Shown piece by piece: positions 1,516 through 16,072 of a stretch of 35,490 nt of DNA. The notes beneath the pieces are model-generated. The model ran no database searches. It worked only from the letters and a program-made list of their open reading frames with translations, and was not told where the DNA came from. The translations under genes and the position numbers were made by a program. The number at the start of each line of letters is the position of its first letter. The stretch's first letter is position 1. This DNA is from Desulfotignum sp. (GTDB lineage Bacteria; Desulfobacterota; Desulfobacteria; Desulfobacterales; Desulfobacteraceae). Location: positions 1 to 35,490 of the forward strand of contig JAABSB010000014.1 in the NCBI GenBank assembly GCA_011390615.1, given 5' to 3'.

Positions 1516-2844
1516 TTATGAAGTATATCCGGGCCAGGGCTTGTTGATCTGAACCAGAAAGTTTTTATGCTCCCCTAATGTTTCAATGAAGTCTTCCAGT
1601 TCGTCCCGGTCCAGTTCAGGGGAAATATAAAAGGCATCCTGGAACAGGCGGGTTTGTTTTCGGGTGGTTGTTGATTCAGGGGGCAACATCTGCATATGGC
1701 GTTTCAGTCCGAATACCCCGATGTTAACCCACACTGCTGTAATGTCCGGGTAGGATGCTACCAGATCAAAGGTTTCTCTTATGGATGCCATGGTTTCTCC
1801 AGGCCCTCCCAGAATCAGGGAAATACCATGGGCAATACCAGATGCGGCAAGACTTTCCAGAGCAGATCTGATGTCATCTTTTCTGTATCCCCGGTTCATA
1901 TTGGCCAGAAGCCGGGCGGATGCGGTTTCAATGGAAAGCCCTGTAAAGGTGCACCCGGATGTTTTGAGCATGCTGCAGAACTCACGGGAAATCCCTAAGG
2001 GTTTGAAGGTGCCGGAACGCCATTGCACATCTGTCTGCGCATCTGCCAGGGTCCGGCACAGGGTTTTGGCATGGGTGATGGGGCAGTTGAAGCTGGTGTC
2101 GCAGAAATTGATATCAGCCGCCCCGGTGTGGGCCTTGATATTAAGAATTTCCGCAAGAATCCGGTCATAGGATTTTATGCGGTACTCCTTTCCATTGGCA
2201 AAGCAGCTGGAACAATAGGTGCAGCCAAAGGAGCATCCCCGCTTGGTGACCATGCCCCAGGGAACATTCAGGCGGTTGTAAAAGGCGGAATCAAACAGTT
2301 GATATGCAGGCATAGGTATGGCATCCAGGGTCTTCATCTCCTGCCAGGGCCGGGTATACACATTTTCACCACTGCGGATGACTATTCCCGGTATCCGGCG
2401 CAACGCCTTTTCATGGATACAAGCATCCAGAAACGCAGGAAAGCTGGATTCACACTCTCCCACAAGGCCAAAATCAATGTCCAGGCAGAACAGCCAGTCA
2501 GAGGGAAAATAATTGAATCCTCCGCCGCCTGCCACCACCAGGGCATCGGTCTGCTGCTTTACAATAGTCACCAGGCGCTTGAGCATGGGACGGATATCGG
2601 TGAAAACAACGCTGTTTTGAAGGGGGTTTCCCGGGATGCTGCATGTGACCAAGGGAATAGACAGGCCCACCACATCCGGTTTGCACTGTTTCAGGCAGGC
2701 AATAAATCTGCTATCATCTCCCTGGTCCGGCAGGCAGTCAAAAACCGCCACCCGGTGCCCGGCCTCCAGTGCAGATCCGGCAATATATGCCGCCCCCACC
2801 GGCGACATGGGCAGCGAATTTGCTGAAATAATCAACACGTTCAT
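1516..2844 (-). CDS. B12-binding domain radical SAM protein
   Basis: Radical SAM enzyme with an N-terminal cobalamin-binding (Rossmann) domain. Numbered from the preferred start, the B12-like domain spans about residues 1-140 and includes VGECESSF, the equivalent of the GEGE turn. The CxxxCxxC cluster motif is C204, C208 and C211 (RGCSFGCTYCSS), followed by a TIM-barrel region to about residue 400. I chose ATG 2844 because a GAGGAT-type ribosome site lies 6-8 bp upstream; an in-frame longer start at 2901 lacks one. Family members are methyltransferases, ring-forming enzymes or of unknown role, and the substrate cannot be read here. The gene stands alone, convergent with nadK. Confidence 0.85.
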   Translation of the reverse strand: MNVLIISANSLPMSPVGAAYIAGSALEAGHRVAVFDCLPDQGDDSRFIACLKQCKPDVVGLSIPLVTCSIPGNPLQNSVVFTDIRPMLKRLVTIVKQQTDALVVAGGGGFNYFPSDWLFCLDIDFGLVGECESSFPAFLDACIHEKALRRIPGIVIRSGENVYTRPWQEMKTLDAIPMPAYQLFDSAFYNRLNVPWGMVTKRGCSFGCTYCSSCFANGKEYRIKSYDRILAEILNIKAHTGAADINFCDTSFNCPITHAKTLCRTLADAQTDVQWRSGTFKPLGISREFCSMLKTSGCTFTGLSIETASARLLANMNRGYRKDDIRSALESLAASGIAHGISLILGGPGETMASIRETFDLVASYPDITAVWVNIGVFGLKRHMQMLPPESTTTRKQTRLFQDAFYISPELDRDELEDFIETLGEHKNFLVQINKPWPGYTS

Positions 2845-2943
2845 GCCATATCCTCTTTGCTGGGTTTTATCGCGGCTGCAGCCGGAATATTTAATTTGCA
2901 AATTTCATACAGACACCATATTAAAGCACATTTCTAAAAGCAA

Positions 2944-5875: not shown

Positions 5876-8056
5876 ATGGATATTTCAGGCAAAAGAAAAA
5901 TTTTGATCGTTGATGATATTCCCACCAATATTACGGTTCTGACCCAGATTCTGATGTCCGATTATAAAATGGTCTGCGCAACAAATGGAAAAGATGCCCT
6001 TAAACTGGCGTCATCTTCCTGTCCGGATCTGATCTTGCTGGATATCATGATGCCGGATATGGACGGTTACGCGGTGTGCCGGCAGTTGAAATTACAGGAT
6101 AGTACCCGGCATATCCCAGTCATATTCCTGACGGCGAAAAAAGAGGAAGAAGATGAGGTGAAAGGTCTTTCACTGGGTGCAGTGGATTACATATCAAAAC
6201 CTTTCAGTCCCGTCATATTGAAGCACAAAGTCAGGATACATTTGGAGCTTAAACTCCACCGGGACAATCTTGAAGAGATCATCAAAGAACGCACTATTGA
6301 AATATCAAAATCACACAAAAAGCTTCATGAAGAGATTACAGAACGTATTCAGGTCCAAAAATCGCTGATTGAACAGCGGGCCTATTTTCTGCATCTTTTT
6401 GAGAATTCTCCCCAGGCAATTATGATCGTTGCACCTGATGGAAAGGTTGTTGAAGCCAACAAGGGGTTTGAAAATATTTTCGGCTATGCGGTAGATGAAA
6501 TCAAGGGCAGATACAGTAAAAACCTGATTGTGCCGGAAGAAATGATTGCAGAGGACGAGACCTTTCATAAAAATATTCTTACAGGCAAAACCATCACCAA
6601 AGAAACCTATCGATCACGAAAAAATGGCGATCTCATACCAGTGACATTTCTGGGATATCCTGCCATTGTTAAAAACCAGATTGAAGGGCTTTTTATCCTA
6701 TACGACGATATTTCAGAAAGGAAAAAATTTGAAGCACAGATGCTGCACCAGTCTTTTCATGATCCCTTGACAGGTATCCCAAACAGGGCCCTGCTCATGG
6801 AAAGAATCAACCGGTCTCTGGAGCGCTCTAAAAGAAGAAAAGAATACCAGTTTGCTGTTCTCATGATTGATCTGGACAATTTTAAATCAGTTAATGACAG
6901 CATCGGGCAGCTGGCCGGAGATAAATTTTTGATACAATTTTCCGACCAGATACGGCACTGCATCAGGTCCACAGATACAATAGCACGCATGGGCGGAGAT
7001 GAATTCGCCGTGCTGCTGGAAGAATTCAAAGGACCGCGTGAAGTATTTAAGATTGCAAAACGTATTTTTAATATTGGAAAATCCAGCTTTTTCATAGAAC
7101 GAAATGAGATCACCATCAGTGCAAGTATCGGGGTGGTAATACAAACAACATCATATGACCGGGCTGAAAATATCATACGGGATGCAGATATTGCCATGTA
7201 CCGTGCCAAGGAAAATGGTAAATCCAGTTTTCGCATTTTTAAACAGAAAATGCACAAGTTGACCCTTGAATCCATAAAAATGCAAAATGAGCTGCGACAC
7301 GCCATTTTCAACAATGAACTTGTTTTGTTCTATCAGCCCATTATTTCTGTTTCTGAACAGCACCTGCTTGGCTTTGAAGCACTTGTAAGATGGCGTCACC
7401 CGGTCAGGGGCATGCTCGGTCCCAATCTGTTTATTCCCCTTGCCGAAGAAACCGATCTTATTCTTCCCCTGGGACGGTTTGTCCTACAAGAAGCATGCCG
7501 GCAGTTGAAACATTGGCATGAAACGATCCCGGGTGGTGAAAACCTGACCATGAATGTCAATATTTCCACCAAGCAGTTCATGGATGGCGAGTTGACCGGA
7601 TTTATTATCAAAACCCTGGAAGAGACCCAGCTGTCACCCCAATACCTTAATCTTGAGATAACCGAAAGCCTTATAACCAAAAATGCAAAATCCATGATGT
7701 CCAAACTTGCCGTCCTGAAAAAGCATGGCATCAATGTGCTGCTGGATGATTTTGGAACAGGGTATTCTTCATTGTCATATATTCAGGATTTTCAAATCGA
7801 CAGCATAAAAATTGACCGGTCTTTTATTAATGACATGGACCGGGATGGCGGCAGTATTGAAATTGTTAAAACGATTCTTGCCCTGTGCCGGAACCTGGGT
7901 CTCGGCGTCGTGGCTGAGGGCATCGAGCGCAAAACCCAGTTCAATCTCTTAAAAGAGCTGAATTGCGAAAAAATACAAGGGTTTTATTTTTCCAAACCGG
8001 TTGATGAAAAAAAGGCCGCACATCTGATAAAAAACGGGATCACCATTTCTGAATAA
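5876..8056 (+). CDS. Response regulator with PAS, GGDEF and EAL domains
   Basis: A 726-residue cytoplasmic cyclic-di-GMP protein. The receiver domain is at 1-125 with acidic pair D13/D14, phospho-acceptor D56 and K108 in YISKPF. A coiled linker covers 128-168, PAS 170-285 and GGDEF about 290-455. The active motif GGDEF is at 373-377, with an RxxD feedback site, RSTD, at 364-367. The EAL domain spans about 475-720, with EAL at 501-503, [26 protein letters not shown] and VVAEGIE. Both catalytic halves keep their key residues, so it may make and degrade c-di-GMP, with phosphorylation choosing between the two. It converges on the hybrid kinase gene, the two ends overlapping by 17 bp. Confidence 0.95.
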
Positions 8057-11000
8057 ATGATCTGATAAGCTGTCTGGCAGCCTCAAACTGGTAAATTCCT
8101 ATCTGGGCTTCAAGTTTTTGTGACAGATCAGCAAGACTTGTATCGTGAACATGGGTGTTGGTGTATTCTTTGAAACGGTCAAAGGTGATTTTTGATTCAG
8201 CAGGATCATATTCCGCCAGATTTGTATCCAGTTCTTCAAGCAGCGTATGTATTTTGTCGGGGTCATTTTTTTGATCTGGCTGGTGAAATGCGTTTTGTGA
8301 ACGGGTGGAGTCGGCATGAAGCGTTTCCAGGGATTTTTTAACTTCTGAAAACCGTTGTTCAATCTGAGAAATATAATGGTTTATCTGATCGGTATTTTCG
8401 GCATCAATGGCTTTTTCAAGGGATTGTGATGCGGCAAAAAGGTCCTTTGCCGCAAGATTTCCCGCAGATCCCTTGAGGGAATGGTTTTCTTTTCGGGCCT
8501 GTTTCAGATTATTCTGACAAACCAGGTCTTTTATCCTGGCCGGTACCGTTGCAAGATCCTGGCAGAACCGGTCAAGAATGTCTGTATACCTTTCCAGGCT
8601 GCAGCCCATGCGCGCCATCCCTTCAACAAGATCAATTCCCGACAGTGCAATGGTATCATTCGCTGTCATGTTGCTGTCATCTGAAGCCTGTTTTATTTCC
8701 GTGATATCTGAAACCACAGGTGTACCTGGAATATATTTTTTCAGGACCTTATACAGTTTGTGTCTGTCAATGGGCTTTGAAATATAATCATCCATGCCGG
8801 CTGCAATGCATTTTTCGCGGTCTCCCCGCATGGCATGGGCAGTCATGGCGATGATGGGCAGGTCTCTTTTCCCAAGATCATTTCGGATTCTGACAGTTGC
8901 TTCCAGGCCATCCATCTGCGGCATCTGAACATCCATCAATACAGCATCAAAGTCTTCGGTTTTTAGTTTTTCCATGGCCTCCACCCCGTTGACCGCTGTC
9001 TGGACATGCATGCCGGCCAGGGTGAGAATTTCAACCGCCACCATTTGGTTAATGGGATTGTCTTCCGCCAGCAGCACTTTGGCATCGGATGCGTAGTTAT
9101 AAACATCTTGCAAATCAGTTTGGGATGAAAAAACAGTCTGGTGTCCAAAAGACTCCATAATGGTATCCAGTAAAAGGGAAGGCCTGACAGGTTTTTCCAA
9201 AAAAAGGGGGGATTTTCCAGATAAAGACGGAAAGTATTTTCCGGGACTGGCGCAGGTTCCCATTAATATGACTGGCGGTTTGTGGGGTAAGTCTTTTTTT
9301 TCGATCTCTTCAGCAAACGTTTTTCCATCCATATCCGGCAGGCCAATATCAGAAATGAGCAGATCAAACGGCTGGGATGGGTCCTGGTCTGCAAGCAGTG
9401 ACAAAGCTTTTTCTGCAGTATCGGCCATATGGGGATGAAAGTCAAAGGAAGCAAGCATCTGATTCAACACATGCTGTGTGGATGGGTTTGCCTCTGCTAC
9501 AAGTATTTGCATCCCTTTCAGGCTTGATGGAAGTTTTCGGGGTCTGTCTTTTGCAGGGAGTCCTTTTTTCAGCCGGATAGTAAAAGAGAAAAGGCTTCCT
9601 TTACCGGGCATGCTTTCAACAGTGACTTTGCCGTGCATCATGGATATTATTTTGTGGCAGATGGCCAGTCCCAGCCCTGTACCCCCGTATTTTCTGGTTG
9701 TGGAGCTGTCTGCCTGGGCAAAGGCTTCGAAAAGGGTTTGCTGGTTTTTGGGATCAATGCCGATACCGGTGTCTTTTACGCCGAAATACAATGTGACATC
9801 CGCATCAGTTTCCTCAATGGCCTTGATGGTGATGCAGATATCTCCTTTTTCAGTAAATTTAACTGCATTGGATGTTAAATTTACAAGCACCTGCTGCAGC
9901 CGTAAAGGGTCACCAATTATTTCAGTAGGAATATCCGGCGCAATATCAATAATAAGTTCCAGGTGTTTTTTACGCAGATCATCAATAAAGAGATCAGTGA
10001 CATTATTAATAATTTCTTTTAACTGGAAAGGAATATTTTCAATATCCAGTTTTCCGGCCTCAATTTTTGAAAAATCCAGGATTTCATTGATTATTCCAAG
10101 CAGGGATTTTGCTGAAGAATTTATTATTGAAACATATTCCAGTCTCTGTTTTGGTGAGAGATTCGGATTTTTGGCCAGATCAGACATACCGATGATGGCG
10201 TTCATGGGTGTCCGTATCTCATGGCTCATGTTTGCAAGGAAACTGCTTTTGGCCTTGGTGGATTCATCAGCCAATTCTTTGGCTTTCTGGAGTTCAATAT
10301 TGGCGGCTTTAAGTTCCTGTGTCCGTTCCTCAACCCGGGTTTCCAGTTCATTGTGAATCTTGCGCAATTCCTGTTCAACCCGTTTGCGTTCAACAATTTC
10401 CACCTTGAGATCTTTGTTGGCATGGGCCAGCATTTCTGTTCGTTCTTTTACCCTGTCTTCCAGCAGCTGGTTTGCTTCATGGGTTTTCTGCTGCTCTTTT
10501 TCAAGAAGCCGGGCAAGAAAGAAATCTCGCCGGGCGGCATATTCTATGGAATAGCAGGAAAACATGCCGATGATATTTGCGCTGATAAAAAAGAAATTGT
10601 TGTTAATGAGAATAGGCAGAGGGGTTGAACTGATGACCGTGGCACCGATTTCATAACAGATGACAATAAACCAGCCTGATATGGTTGCCCAAATGAACCG
10701 TGCCCGTATGAATGAGTAGCCGAAAATAAAAATCAGCATCAATCCGGCATAATATGAATAGTTTATGGGTGGCGGTGCGATGATTATCATGGTGACAATG
10801 CCCAGTCCGGCCAGTACAACCACAAAAGCAAGGGAAAGCTGCATATATTTTTTATAGCCGGCGGAAAATGACAGCAAAAGCACCAGGGCTGTCACAGGAA
10901 AGAAAATGGCATACCGAATAAACCACAGCTTGTTTCTCATTTCCGGCATCAACTGGGCATCAAGGATACCGAAAAATGAATAAAAAACGATGGCTATAAA

Positions 11001-11165
11001 AAGGGATATCCTTACCTGGTTGATAAATTTTGCATGGTAATCGTCTAAAAATTCTTTTTCAAGCGCCCCGGATTCATCACGAAAGGACAAGGTAAGCAGT
11101 TTCAGCTGCATGCCTGACGGATTAAAGATGGAATGGGCCAGTCTTTTTTTAAAATTAGATGCCAT
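8040..11165 (-). CDS. Six-TM hybrid sensor histidine kinase with two receivers and Hpt
   Basis: A 1041-residue inner-membrane kinase. Residues 50-215 hold about six hydrophobic helices, with [20 protein letters not shown] and a final [11 protein letters not shown] coiled coil spans 220-305. HisKA has H315 ([11 protein letters not shown]), and the ATPase domain shows DTGIGI and GGTGLGL. Receiver 1 (553-672, D606) has EA in place of the usual acidic pair and may be degenerate. Receiver 2 (696-810, D745, K797) looks complete. An Hpt domain carries H895 (NHSLKGSAG). The methyltransferase gene ends 54 bp upstream, so the two are likely one operon. The ATG at 11165 has no clear ribosome site, so the start is the least certain part. 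Confidence 0.93.
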
Positions 11166-11219
11166 GGTTCATTTTTTTATCGGTGTCTGCAGATCTGGTC
11201 AGCAGCAGTGGCATTTTTT

Positions 11220-12131
11220 TCAACCCTTTGAAATGAAGTCTTTCCCTCGCTTCAAATGGAGAAACAGGTTTACGCCTTCAGGTTCCTGGCCTATGTGGAT
11301 ATCTGATTCTCTGAAATTGCAGGCCATGGCCAGTGAAATAAGTTGTTCCGGTGTTCTGTGAATCAACCGCCAGTCTCCGATGACTTCCATATAGGCTTGG
11401 GTTGGATTGTTTGTTGAAAAATTTCCGATGACCATTTCTCCGTCATCTCCAAGCAAGGGAATGAGGTGGTTTAAAAGGAATATAAATTTTTTATCATTGA
11501 GGTAGTCAAATAACCCGGCTGACCAAATCAGGCGGTATTTTTTGTCTGAGGTAAAATCAAAGGCATTTGTATGAAGAAAGGTAATTTTGTGCAGAAAATC
11601 TTTGCACAGGTTTTTTGCATAGGAGATGGCAAGCGGATCAAATTCCACATTTTCAACCAGGATGCTGCTGTCATTTTTTTGGGAAAAAAAATCAAACAGA
11701 TCCCTTGCAGGCCCGCTGGCAATATTTAATACTCTCTTGTCGGCGTCATTCTGGTCATCAAGGTGGTGCAAAAGATCAAGGAAATATTTTTTTCTGTTTC
11801 TTACTGCCATGGGGGCTTTCTGGAGCTGGAAAAAGAGATCCCATTTCCTCAGTTCCGGATCATTGGATGTGTGCTCAAGATAAATTTTTTCAATGATTTC
11901 ATAATCTCCTGGATAGCCATGGGGTTTGTTGAAAACAAAACCCTGAAGCGTCAATATGGAAAGAGCTTCTCCCATTTTTCCCCGGAGCAGATCAAGGTCA
12001 TTTTTGTGTAATGTACCATTTTTTATTTCCTTGTGAACCTGGGTGAGCCAGTCGGAAAACTCATGATATTCTGAAGAATCAGGCCCTCCTTTTGCTACCA
12101 TTTCTTCAATAAACGTAATATAATGTTTCAT
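11220..12131 (-). CDS. PhcB-like SAM-dependent methyltransferase (putative signal synthase)
   Basis: Class I S-adenosylmethionine methyltransferase of 303 residues. The N-terminal half carries NKPHGYPGDYEIIEKIY (68-84), a block I recognise from the family containing Ralstonia PhcB, which methylates 3-hydroxypalmitate to make the autoinducer 3-OH PAME. The SAM-binding fold follows: VLNIASGPARDL (motif I, 134-145), VEFDPLAISYA (162-172), WSAGLFDYL (203-211) and IGNFSTNNPTQAYMEVIGDWRLIHRT. It is first in an operon with a membrane hybrid kinase, as phcB is with phcS. The acceptor cannot be read from sequence, and many family members are uncharacterised, so the signal role is inference. Confidence 0.68.
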   Translation of the reverse strand: MKHYITFIEEMVAKGGPDSSEYHEFSDWLTQVHKEIKNGTLHKNDLDLLRGKMGEALSILTLQGFVFNKPHGYPGDYEIIEKIYLEHTSNDPELRKWDLFFQLQKAPMAVRNRKKYFLDLLHHLDDQNDADKRVLNIASGPARDLFDFFSQKNDSSILVENVEFDPLAISYAKNLCKDFLHKITFLHTNAFDFTSDKKYRLIWSAGLFDYLNDKKFIFLLNHLIPLLGDDGEMVIGNFSTNNPTQAYMEVIGDWRLIHRTPEQLISLAMACNFRESDIHIGQEPEGVNLFLHLKRGKDFISKG

Positions 12132-12456
12132 GGTAAATTAGCTCCAGATGAATATGGTGTGCCGATTGTTTCCAAATTGCCTCTTCTTTGATTGGAACCT
12201 TTCACCCAAATTAACAAAAAACCTGTAAATACAGATTCTGACCAAATTTTATAACGTATAACTACATAAATCAGTACCGCCTGTCAATTGATATGAGTGA
12301 TATTAAAAAGAATTATCCGCACCCTTTTTGATCAACTGCTCTGATTGTAATTTATTGACAAAATTTGATTTTCGATGCTATCTATCAGCATATATTTCTG
12401 TAAAGGCTGGTGCCGGACGGCATTTTTTAGAATCAAGAATCTCATGAGGTCCTTTA
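12132..12456. other. 325-bp intergenic region between divergent genes
   Basis: This AT-rich gap separates the methyltransferase operon (leftward) from the small DRR protein gene (rightward). It holds a likely promoter for the rightward gene (TTGACA at 12355) and a short dyad CTGTAAATACAG at 12223-12234 on the methyltransferase side. I see no open frame with a ribosome site and no recognisable RNA gene. No convincing -35/-10 pair was found for the methyltransferase operon. Confidence 0.5.
12355..12384 (+). promoter_or_regulatory. Candidate sigma70 promoter of the DRR protein gene
   Basis: TTGACA at 12355-12360 is followed after 18 bp by TATCTA at 12379-12384. The -10 match is modest. The expected transcript start is about 65 bp before the ATG at 12457. 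Confidence 0.4.
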
Positions 12457-14353: not shown

Positions 14354-16072
14354 TCATTCTCCGGATAAAATCATCAAGGTTAAATCATCTGTGCGGGGGA
14401 CAAGATATTCAGCGCAGCGATTTTCTATCCAGTTTATCTGGTCATCCAGCGGCATTTTTTTGGACTGGATCAACCACTTTAAAAAACCGTCAAAGTCCAG
14501 TTTTTTATCGATGTTGCAAGATTTTTTTTTGGTAATCCGGCCTTCTGTGAATCCATCCGTATATAGATACAACCGGCTGTCAGCAAGAGAAAATTTTTTG
14601 ACAGAATGCACCGCATCCGGAATGACACCCAAAGGGGGTGCGGAAGCAAGAATTTTGAAAATATTTTTTTCATTTACCAGCAGGGGAGGCAGATGTCCCA
14701 CATTAATCAGTGATATCTCCCGTGAGTCCGGATCAAGCCATCCCCCCACAAACGTAACAAACATTCCCCTGGTGGCAGTTTCATACAGTTCGTTGTTCAT
14801 CAGATAAACAATGTGACTGATATCATCAACCACTTTGCTCAAACACCGGAAAAGGGAAATGGCTTTTGCCATGAGGAGTGCGGCAGATGTTCCCTTTCCC
14901 GAAACATCGCCCAGACAAAAGCAGATGGTGCCGTCAGGTTTTGCAAAATAGTCGTAAAAATCACCTGAAAGATGAAACGCAGGAATATTGAATGCCACGA
15001 CTTGACGTATCTGTCCAATATCCGGCTGCAGATTTTTTTGGATTTCCCGGGCAATATCCAGCTCAGCCTCCAGTTTTGCAGCATATGCATCCCTTTGCTG
15101 AAGGGATTTTTGCAGTTTCCAGGTCAATTCCACATAACTGATAGTATCTTGTGTCAATTTCTGATTGGCCTGGGTCATCACGGAATGGAAATCAGGTTGT
15201 GTTCCTGTACTGATGTCCAATGAAAAGGACATTTCTTTAACCTGATCCGGCAAAAGGGACAATACTGATTCTATTGTATCCCCGTCCAGTCTGAAGATCT
15301 GATTGGCCTGTTGTTTGAGTGCAGACAAAGCAGTCGCTTTGTCATGACAGGAAAAGGCGGCATTGCACAGATCAGCCAGACCCATCAGGGATGACAGGAC
15401 GGTGTGCCCATCTGCTGCTGCCCTTTGCCTGATCTGTTTTTGATTGAAAATATGGTGATGGGAGGCAATGGCTGCAGTGTAGGTTTCAGGCAGATGCCAT
15501 TTTTTTGCCAGCAGTGCCCCCACGCTGTCATGGGTGGTATGAAATATTTCTTTTTCCATTTCATATCGTTTTTCCGGAAGATTGGCCCGTAACAGGGGCC
15601 ATCTGTCAACTTTATCAGGTGCGATGGAAAAAAGAACCAGCAGGCCGATATCCTGCATCATGCCGCCGGTAAACGCCTGTTCCACAGGGCCTTTCACAAG
15701 ACCGGAGAGCTGCCGGGCAGCAATTCCTCTTCGCAGGGCATCTTCCCAGAATAGGTTGATGTCAAAACCAGGTATGGCGGTTTTAGCCAAGGCCTCTTTA
15801 ACCGAAAAACATAAAACCAGATTGCGAAGTTGATCAATTCCCATGGCAACAATCGCTTCAGAAACAGTTTCAACAGATTGGTAAAAGCCAAAAAAAGCTG
15901 AATTGACAAAACCCAGAATCTGAGCGGTTAAAACAGGATTTAAGGCTATCAGGCGGCTCAGGTGTTGGATGTCGACATCTTCTTTTAAGGTATACCGGAT
16001 CAGTTCCATAATCCTGTCATCCGGCACAGGAAGATTTTCAAGCTGAAAATTTTTATATGATATGGCACGCAT
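14354..16072 (-). CDS. HDOD domain / PP2C (SpoIIE-type) phosphatase
   Basis: A 572-residue signalling protein. The HDOD domain spans about residues 10-215 (ILGFVNSAFFGFYQSVETVSEAIVAMGIDQLRNLVLCF). A coiled linker lies around 310-340 (ELDIAREIQKNLQP), a typical entry to RsbU-type phosphatases. The PP2C/SpoIIE domain follows, with metal-binding aspartates in LSGDFYDYF, LGDVSGKGTSAALLMA and LYTDGFTEG. Such proteins dephosphorylate anti-sigma antagonists in partner-switching systems, but no STAS or anti-sigma kinase gene is nearby, so the partner must be elsewhere. There are no membrane segments. ATG 16072 has GGA about 8 bp upstream. Confidence 0.92.
   Translation of the reverse strand: MRAISYKNFQLENLPVPDDRIMELIRYTLKEDVDIQHLSRLIALNPVLTAQILGFVNSAFFGFYQSVETVSEAIVAMGIDQLRNLVLCFSVKEALAKTAIPGFDINLFWEDALRRGIAARQLSGLVKGPVEQAFTGGMMQDIGLLVLFSIAPDKVDRWPLLRANLPEKRYEMEKEIFHTTHDSVGALLAKKWHLPETYTAAIASHHHIFNQKQIRQRAAADGHTVLSSLMGLADLCNAAFSCHDKATALSALKQQANQIFRLDGDTIESVLSLLPDQVKEMSFSLDISTGTQPDFHSVMTQANQKLTQDTISYVELTWKLQKSLQQRDAYAAKLEAELDIAREIQKNLQPDIGQIRQVVAFNIPAFHLSGDFYDYFAKPDGTICFCLGDVSGKGTSAALLMAKAISLFRCLSKVVDDISHIVYLMNNELYETATRGMFVTFVGGWLDPDSREISLINVGHLPPLLVNEKNIFKILASAPPLGVIPDAVHSVKKFSLADSRLYLYTDGFTEGRITKKKSCNIDKKLDFDGFLKWLIQSKKMPLDDQINWIENRCAEYLVPRTDDLTLMILSGE

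Follow-up and report, generated by a model that had tools for sequence, protein, structure and literature searches.

Introduction

The CqsS-type ligand CAI-1 is a hydroxyketone and CqsA is a pyridoxal phosphate (PLP) enzyme. LqsA is a PLP enzyme too (PMC10653808), the membrane domain of CqsS senses CAI-1 (PMC4821796), and in the Phc system (phcBSRQ, Ralstonia/Cupriavidus) the signal is a methyl ester (PMC8578825). In addition, responses to fatty acids are reported for the membrane domains of mammalian adenylyl cyclases as well as Rv1625c (PMC11606603, PMC12505454). The phc cluster is described as restricted, in Betaproteobacteria, in a survey of Proteobacteria (PMC10653808). Here we describe a three-gene block in a 35,490-nt Desulfotignum contig (the whole stretch analysed, hereafter the window; source draft genome, 3.0 Mb), in which a class I methyltransferase (MT) adjoins a hybrid histidine kinase with a six-transmembrane-helix domain (6TM) and a predicted cyclic di-GMP (c-di-GMP) response regulator converges on the kinase. 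Desulfotignum is a sulfate reducer and, to our knowledge, few methylated lipophilic signals of this kind are known in anaerobes.

A functional pairing of MT and 6TM is well supported, and the occurrence of similar pairs with varied outputs in other phyla suggests, at the level of sequence, a widespread chemical signalling system. Whether the three genes form a lipophilic-signal module complete in itself, with an MT-made ligand, 6TM sensing and c-di-GMP output, we regard as evenly balanced.

Architecture and conservation of the block

A preliminary description of this DNA had placed an MT gene first, a kinase gene second and a convergent regulator gene next to them. The list of open reading frames (ORFs) contains all three at exactly those coordinates and the motifs reported for the MT are intact. 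The MT gene (11220..12131, minus strand; 303 amino acids, aa) encodes a predicted S-adenosylmethionine (SAM)-dependent enzyme, in which the N-terminal part is helical and bears the motifs GGPDSSEY and KPHGYPGDY, ahead of a Rossmann core; KPHGYPGDY lies at residue 69, WSAGLFDYL at 203, GNF at 236 and DWRLIHRT at 253. It stands 54 nt ahead of the kinase gene on the same strand (8040..11165; 1041 aa; 6TM-HisKA-HATPase-REC1-REC2-Hpt), which in turn overlaps the regulator gene (5876..8056, plus strand; 726 aa; REC-PAS-GGDEF-EAL) tail to tail by 17 nt.

The 145 genomes searched, the source genome included, hold an MT match in 33 cases. Besides the window itself, eight have close orthologs of its MT (74-91% identity; four from the same genus and four from genus g14), and in 8/8 the kinase is directly beside the MT; the pairing is conserved in two genera, so that this strain is not the only one to have it. 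On all six contigs long enough to include it (G003, G006, G064, G038, G061 and G082), the regulator comes next to the kinase in tail-to-tail orientation, with overlaps of 17 nt (four contigs), 26 nt and 32 nt (one each); those of G002 and G005 stop short of it. In G082 (L040:3755-9657) the MT is intact and the kinase and regulator genes are fragmented over several frames. Since the genes flanking the trio in genus g14 differ from those in the window genus, the trio behaves as a unit. Among the 13 genomes of the window genus, the five with the MT are also the five with the kinase ortholog. Two more (G007 and G008) lack an MT but contain different 6TM matches of lower strength, and the remaining six have neither. 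A regulator homolog of 61% identity also occurs in G023, a genome without an MT match, on a contig that stops about 20 nt past the regulator.

Pairing of methyltransferases and 6TM proteins across phyla

The receivers and Hpt of the kinase (described below) and a wider association of MTs with 6TM proteins go beyond the preliminary description. Across the 145 genomes, 20/38 MT places have a 6TM match within 5 kb (expectation 0.11), or 12/30 when the nine orthologs are counted once. At the genome level, MT and 6TM occur together in 28, the MT without a 6TM in 5, a 6TM without the MT in 17 and neither in 95. A cleaner test, in which a single 6TM cyclase and its MT served as queries against the full set of 58 genomes from the phylum to which G146 (an Oligoflexia labelled Bdellovibrionota) belongs, gave ten MT places in nine genomes, eight of them directly followed by a match to the cyclase protein, with just the cyclase part of the query aligned in G573 and at one of the two G146 places. 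The six best cyclase matches in this phylum are all MT-linked, and G555 and G574 have an MT without a 6TM cyclase match. In the Bdellovibrionota loci the neighbour of the MT is itself a 6TM class III cyclase, whereas the window has a histidine kinase as its output. At L072:3741-6550, the gene immediately after that of a PilZ-bearing PhcB-superfamily MT encodes a 6TM-containing class III cyclase protein.

Further loci came from a contig scan with a single peptide pattern, which is no census, and the best 80 of 97 confirmed loci were analysed. The MT is present in 80/80 and a 6TM protein lies within 2.4 kb in 60, when all ORFs and a second 6TM profile are used (greedy ORF picking had given 77/80 and 52, respectively); ten of the 80 loci had contributed to the training of the two 6TM profiles, and a few others nearly duplicate them. 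The outputs of these 60 proteins are a kinase core (41), HD-GYP (10), SpoIIE (2) or none of these (7). Similarly, Pfam identified six HD-GYP, two SpoIIE, three kinase and four class III cyclase outputs in 16 of the 6TM proteins, the sixteenth being cut short by its contig and without a match. No Burkholderiales are found among these best 80 of 97 loci. In each of three Bacteroidota genomes (L079, L089 and L099), the sole match to the 6TM profile adjoins the MT, and the genomes of L055, L058 and L074 gave no match with this profile. The 20 loci without a 6TM protein consist of eight from Nitrospirota, 11 with the MT near a contig end, and L093, which has no such excuse.

Two other arrangements of the pair were seen. 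At L061:1853-8745 it is tandemly duplicated (MT, 6TM-HD-GYP, MT, 6TM-HD-GYP). At L089:2143-6813 and similar Bacteroidota loci, genes for 6TM-kinase-REC, REC-HisKA_2-HATPase and REC-LytTR proteins and a short MT stand in a row, and the second gene (by Pfam on L089 only) has the receiver-plus-kinase make-up published for PhcR (PMC8578825). Across 61 linked pairs, the MT and 6TM distances are correlated (Spearman 0.63; reached by 0/999 permutations), a result that kinship of the organisms alone could explain.

Comparison with Phc and other known systems

As in the Phc system, the window has an MT beside a 6TM-sensor kinase. The comparison was made through a single proxy for PhcB, a plasmid protein of P. 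graminis (Paraburkholderia) at locus L031. The four genes of L031 (468, 445, 134 and 344 aa) encode an MT, a kinase and two receivers, which is the phcBSRQ order as published (PMC6989110, PMC8578825). Ralstonia PhcB has about 470 aa, a length obtained by arithmetic from residue positions (PMC6989110), and Ralstonia PhcR also carries a kinase domain, unlike the 134-aa receiver of L031 (PMC6989110, PMC8578825). When published Ralstonia mutation sites are set against the numbering of the P. graminis operon, PhcB R22 fits and PhcQ R154 and PhcS L161 do not (1/3).

The preliminary description had linked the MT to PhcB, and the link stands for the core of the enzyme, which shares 68/267 identities with the P. 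graminis protein (25%; E 6e-21 for the pair), including the invariant positions KP.GY.GD, GL.DY and W.L; the GNF motif of the window MT reads TNV in the proxy. Orthology with PhcB, however, is ruled out by a separate clade and by length, the window MT having 303 aa against 468 aa, with about 150 N-terminal residues missing. In a tree of 116 rows it falls in a clade of 52 short MTs (nine Desulfobacteraceae, 35 Bacteroidota and eight Nitrospirota; support 100/100), apart from the proxy. The proxy joins a 575-aa Desulfobacteraceae protein, though both are long branches and the join may be false. On its sequence, then, the window MT is best described as a PhcB-superfamily member and not as PhcB. 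L026, a member of the MT type found at L156-L158, is the tree sister of the proxy; at L156:3846-8815, L157 and L158, MTs of 570-578 aa stand beside kinase-REC-HD-GYP proteins of about 1080 aa.

Searches of curated libraries and solved structures placed the MT in broad terms. It reaches no family cut-off in Pfam or NCBIfam (Methyltransf_31, 26 bits against 27; none near in NCBIfam), and its structural model is confident (pLDDT 95.6). A single-sequence search against solved chains gave six chance matches, five of them ETV6/TEL fusions, the family profile gave 31 matches, on the SAM core or spurious, and no solved homolog was matched by the P. graminis protein. In a search for PhcB sequences, matches occur in 28/395 genomes of the phylum of G145, at no more than 34% identity among the matches listed, and tblastn on plasmids gave full query cover by the P. 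graminis protein only; 57 plasmid records, mostly Rhizobium, hold a relative of the window MT, and at L032:3602-11373 on a Rhizobium plasmid such a relative lies among EAL, MHYT, GGDEF-EAL and BLUF genes.

The preliminary description also drew on the adjacent phcS/phcR genes of Ralstonia, which sense the signal. The 6TM domain is homologous to that of the PhcS proxy at the profile level, but the PhcS-like kinase has 445 aa and that of the window is a hybrid with two REC domains and an Hpt. Similarly, the place of PhcR/PhcQ is taken by a GGDEF-EAL regulator, and no gene like phcR or phcQ occurs in the window block (the search did not extend to phcA).

Resemblances to other systems are less direct. 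By description, without direct sequence comparison, the window is like CqsA/CqsS and LqsA/LqsS in having a short-loop 6TM sensor kinase beside a putative signal synthase, which here is a methyltransferase instead of a PLP enzyme. Its 6TM fold is similar to that of the membrane adenylyl cyclases and of the 6TM diguanylate cyclase ImcA. In the related Sia-like clusters L058:5431-9315 and L060:4587-9648, an MT lies beside a 6TM-SpoIIE phosphatase as in SiaABCD, with SiaC in L060 and a GGDEF protein in L058. The window block has no Sia-like gene, and the SpoIIE protein elsewhere in the window (14354-16072, minus strand; in the same place in G006) carries HDOD. Among the matches listed, judged by titles and abstract starts, no publication describes an MT-6TM module outside Burkholderiales, subscription papers and preprints being outside the scope.

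The sensor kinase and the c-di-GMP regulator

The 6TM sensor occupies about residues 51-210 of the kinase (10536..11015, minus strand, as are the kinase domains below). The six transmembrane helices of the preliminary description reappear in the AlphaFold2 model, in which they are joined by short loops and the last continues as a long signalling helix (pLDDT 90.6); a crude hydropathy scan had passed just four of the six over its threshold. Using Foldseek, the best match of the 6TM model is ImcA (E 6e-4), followed by the human adenylyl cyclases AC9/AC5 (E 0.04-0.3, TMq 0.47-0.60, probability 1.00), and the 6TM sequence profile matches AC5 in hmmsearch (E 3e-4). In hhalign, the window 6TM gives a probability of 99.4 against an HD-GYP/PhcS set and 90.5 against P. 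graminis PhcS alone, and in pairwise BLAST with that PhcS the kinase part aligns and the 6TM does not. From fold and sequence kinship, the sensor is predicted to be a receptor domain of the adenylyl-cyclase/CqsS/PhcS type.

Pfam further identifies HisKA, HATPase_c, two Response_reg domains and Hpt in the kinase. HisKA (10053..10253; residues 305-371) has its phospho-acceptor His315 in HEIRTP and is followed by HATPase_c (9567..9914; residues 418-533). REC1 (9171..9512; about residues 552-665, bounds set by eye) has Asp606, with the usual acidic pair altered to read EAN; REC2 (8742..9077; residues 697-808) has Asp745 and the usual acidic pair. The Hpt domain (8355..8582; residues 862-937) has His895 in HSLKGSA. 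A BarA-type tripartite hybrid kinase was considered and rejected, as the curated equivalog cut-off was missed (488 bits against 890).

In the regulator, Pfam identifies Response_reg, PAS, GGDEF and EAL. The phosphorylatable Asp56 and the GGDEF, RxxD and EAL motifs are all present, and the protein thereby fits the c-di-GMP response regulator proposed in the preliminary description, as far as motifs can tell.

Proposed mechanism

In the module that we propose, the MT would make a small molecule that dissolves in the membrane, with the carboxyl group of a (hydroxy) fatty acid as the most likely site of methylation, and the 6TM domain of the adjacent hybrid kinase would bind this product within the membrane. 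Phosphate could then pass from His315 to a receiver, on to His895 of the Hpt and finally to Asp56 of the convergent regulator, whose GGDEF/EAL activity, and hence the c-di-GMP level, would change on phosphorylation. The parts of this scheme differ in strength. It is likely that the regulator is the target of the kinase and somewhat probable that the ligand of the 6TM is made by the MT; that the MT product is a fatty-acid methyl ester is plausible, yet falls short of an even chance.

A broader and tentative proposal is that PhcB-superfamily MTs and 6TM domains of the adenylyl-cyclase/CqsS type are one widespread modular synthase-receptor system. One lipid-type receptor may perhaps plug into kinases, HD-GYP proteins, PP2C phosphatases and class III cyclases in this way, and the system might extend over Desulfobacterota, Bacteroidota, Bdellovibrionota and others. 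If so, the kind of ligand that a bacterial 6TM cyclase binds would be revealed by its paired MT. Should MT and 6TM be synthase and receptor, methylated lipophiles would serve as signals in several phyla, anaerobes included, and the question of which molecules the 6TM receptor domains of bacteria sense, also in adenylate cyclases, would become directly testable with a candidate ligand-making enzyme encoded next door.

Several observations weigh against the proposed module. In the 145 genomes, 44/66 6TM places lie more than 5 kb from any MT and 18/38 MT places have no match to the 6TM profile used, and P-values from this test are inflated, because MT-linked sequences made up part of the profile's training set and the genomes are relatives of one another. 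The eight Nitrospirota loci of the MT clade to which the window belongs have no 6TM partner (0/8); seven have a convergent receiver-kinase beside the MT and in L117 the contig ends at the MT. The receiver-kinase of L109, the only one of these scanned with Pfam, has PAS and no membrane domain named, and the L109 genome has no 6TM profile match anywhere. Strict partner fidelity is also contradicted by the MT relatives of L156-L158, all three of which adjoin a kinase-HD-GYP protein without a 6TM match (7TMR-DISM by Pfam in L156). Furthermore, window-type MTs are nearer to Bacteroidota MTs (distance 0.609) than to long MTs with kinases (0.714), while the corresponding 6TM distances are 0.617 to Bacteroidota and 0.590 to the kinase partners of long MTs; since the MT is nearer to Bacteroidota and the 6TM is not, partners may have been exchanged.

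The MT may make the 6TM ligand as proposed, with that ligand being some other lipophilic methylated molecule derived from a quinone, polyketide or hydroxyketone. We consider this rather unlikely. The positions KP.GY.GD, GL.DY and W.L held in common with the PhcB-like protein argue for a related substrate. The window clade is nevertheless distant from that protein (stem 1.67), and related receptors sense other molecules, such as CAI-1 for CqsS (PMC4821796). The closest folds of the MT are generic, varied small-molecule methyltransferases among the 50 matches shown; they are consistent with another lipophile and give no indication of substrate, a further point against the proposed module. The preliminary description had also raised clustering with methyltransferases acting on proteins, quinones or nucleic acids; none was seen, though the relatives have no known substrates.

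Alternatively, the MT may tune or remove a signal instead of making one, with the 6TM sensing a free fatty acid that the MT methylates away. The response of 6TM cyclases to free fatty acids (PMC11606603, PMC12505454) accords with such a role. Moreover, cNMP_binding (13/65) or PilZ (2/65) domains occur on MTs elsewhere in the family, as might be the case for a controlled tuning enzyme. Because of these domains the enzyme may be under second-messenger control in many relatives; the window MT carries neither. In the Phc system, by contrast, the methyl ester is itself the signal (PMC8578825), and we hold signal removal to be distinctly unlikely.

Methylation of the receptor or another protein, as in CheR-like adaptation, would likewise account for an MT often paired with a receptor, and weak CheR-profile matches do occur in 15/65 family members scanned. 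The 31 solved chains found with the family profile include one chemotaxis methyltransferase (5ftw, E 1.2e-5), where the match lies on the SAM core. The window MT itself has no CheR match at E <= 1 in the Pfam scan and there is none among the 50 best folds shown, which lowers this reading. In addition, the partners share the 6TM and vary in output, so that no obvious common cytoplasmic substrate is left, and a protein-methylating role is very unlikely. That the neighbours are coincidental or just generally co-regulated, as the Nitrospirota relatives without a 6TM partner might suggest, has only a slight residual probability, given that the pairing persists where gene order and output domain differ.

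Upstream region and neighbouring genes

Upstream of the MT gene, in the best conserved upstream stretch and about 130 nt before the gene, an alignment revealed a promoter-like element, TTGACA-N17-TAGTTA (12259..12287, minus strand), which is not proven to be a promoter. TTGACA is kept in 8/8 of the upstream regions aligned (the window and seven orthologs, without G082). The second hexamer, after a 17-nt spacer, is a poor match and reads TAATTT in 5/8. This element is absent from the output of a sigma-70 promoter scan, which gave five sites against 4.1 in shuffles. Elsewhere in the window, a B12-binding radical SAM protein (1516-2901, minus strand) is closest to TIGR04072 (lipid biosynthesis), below the cut-off.

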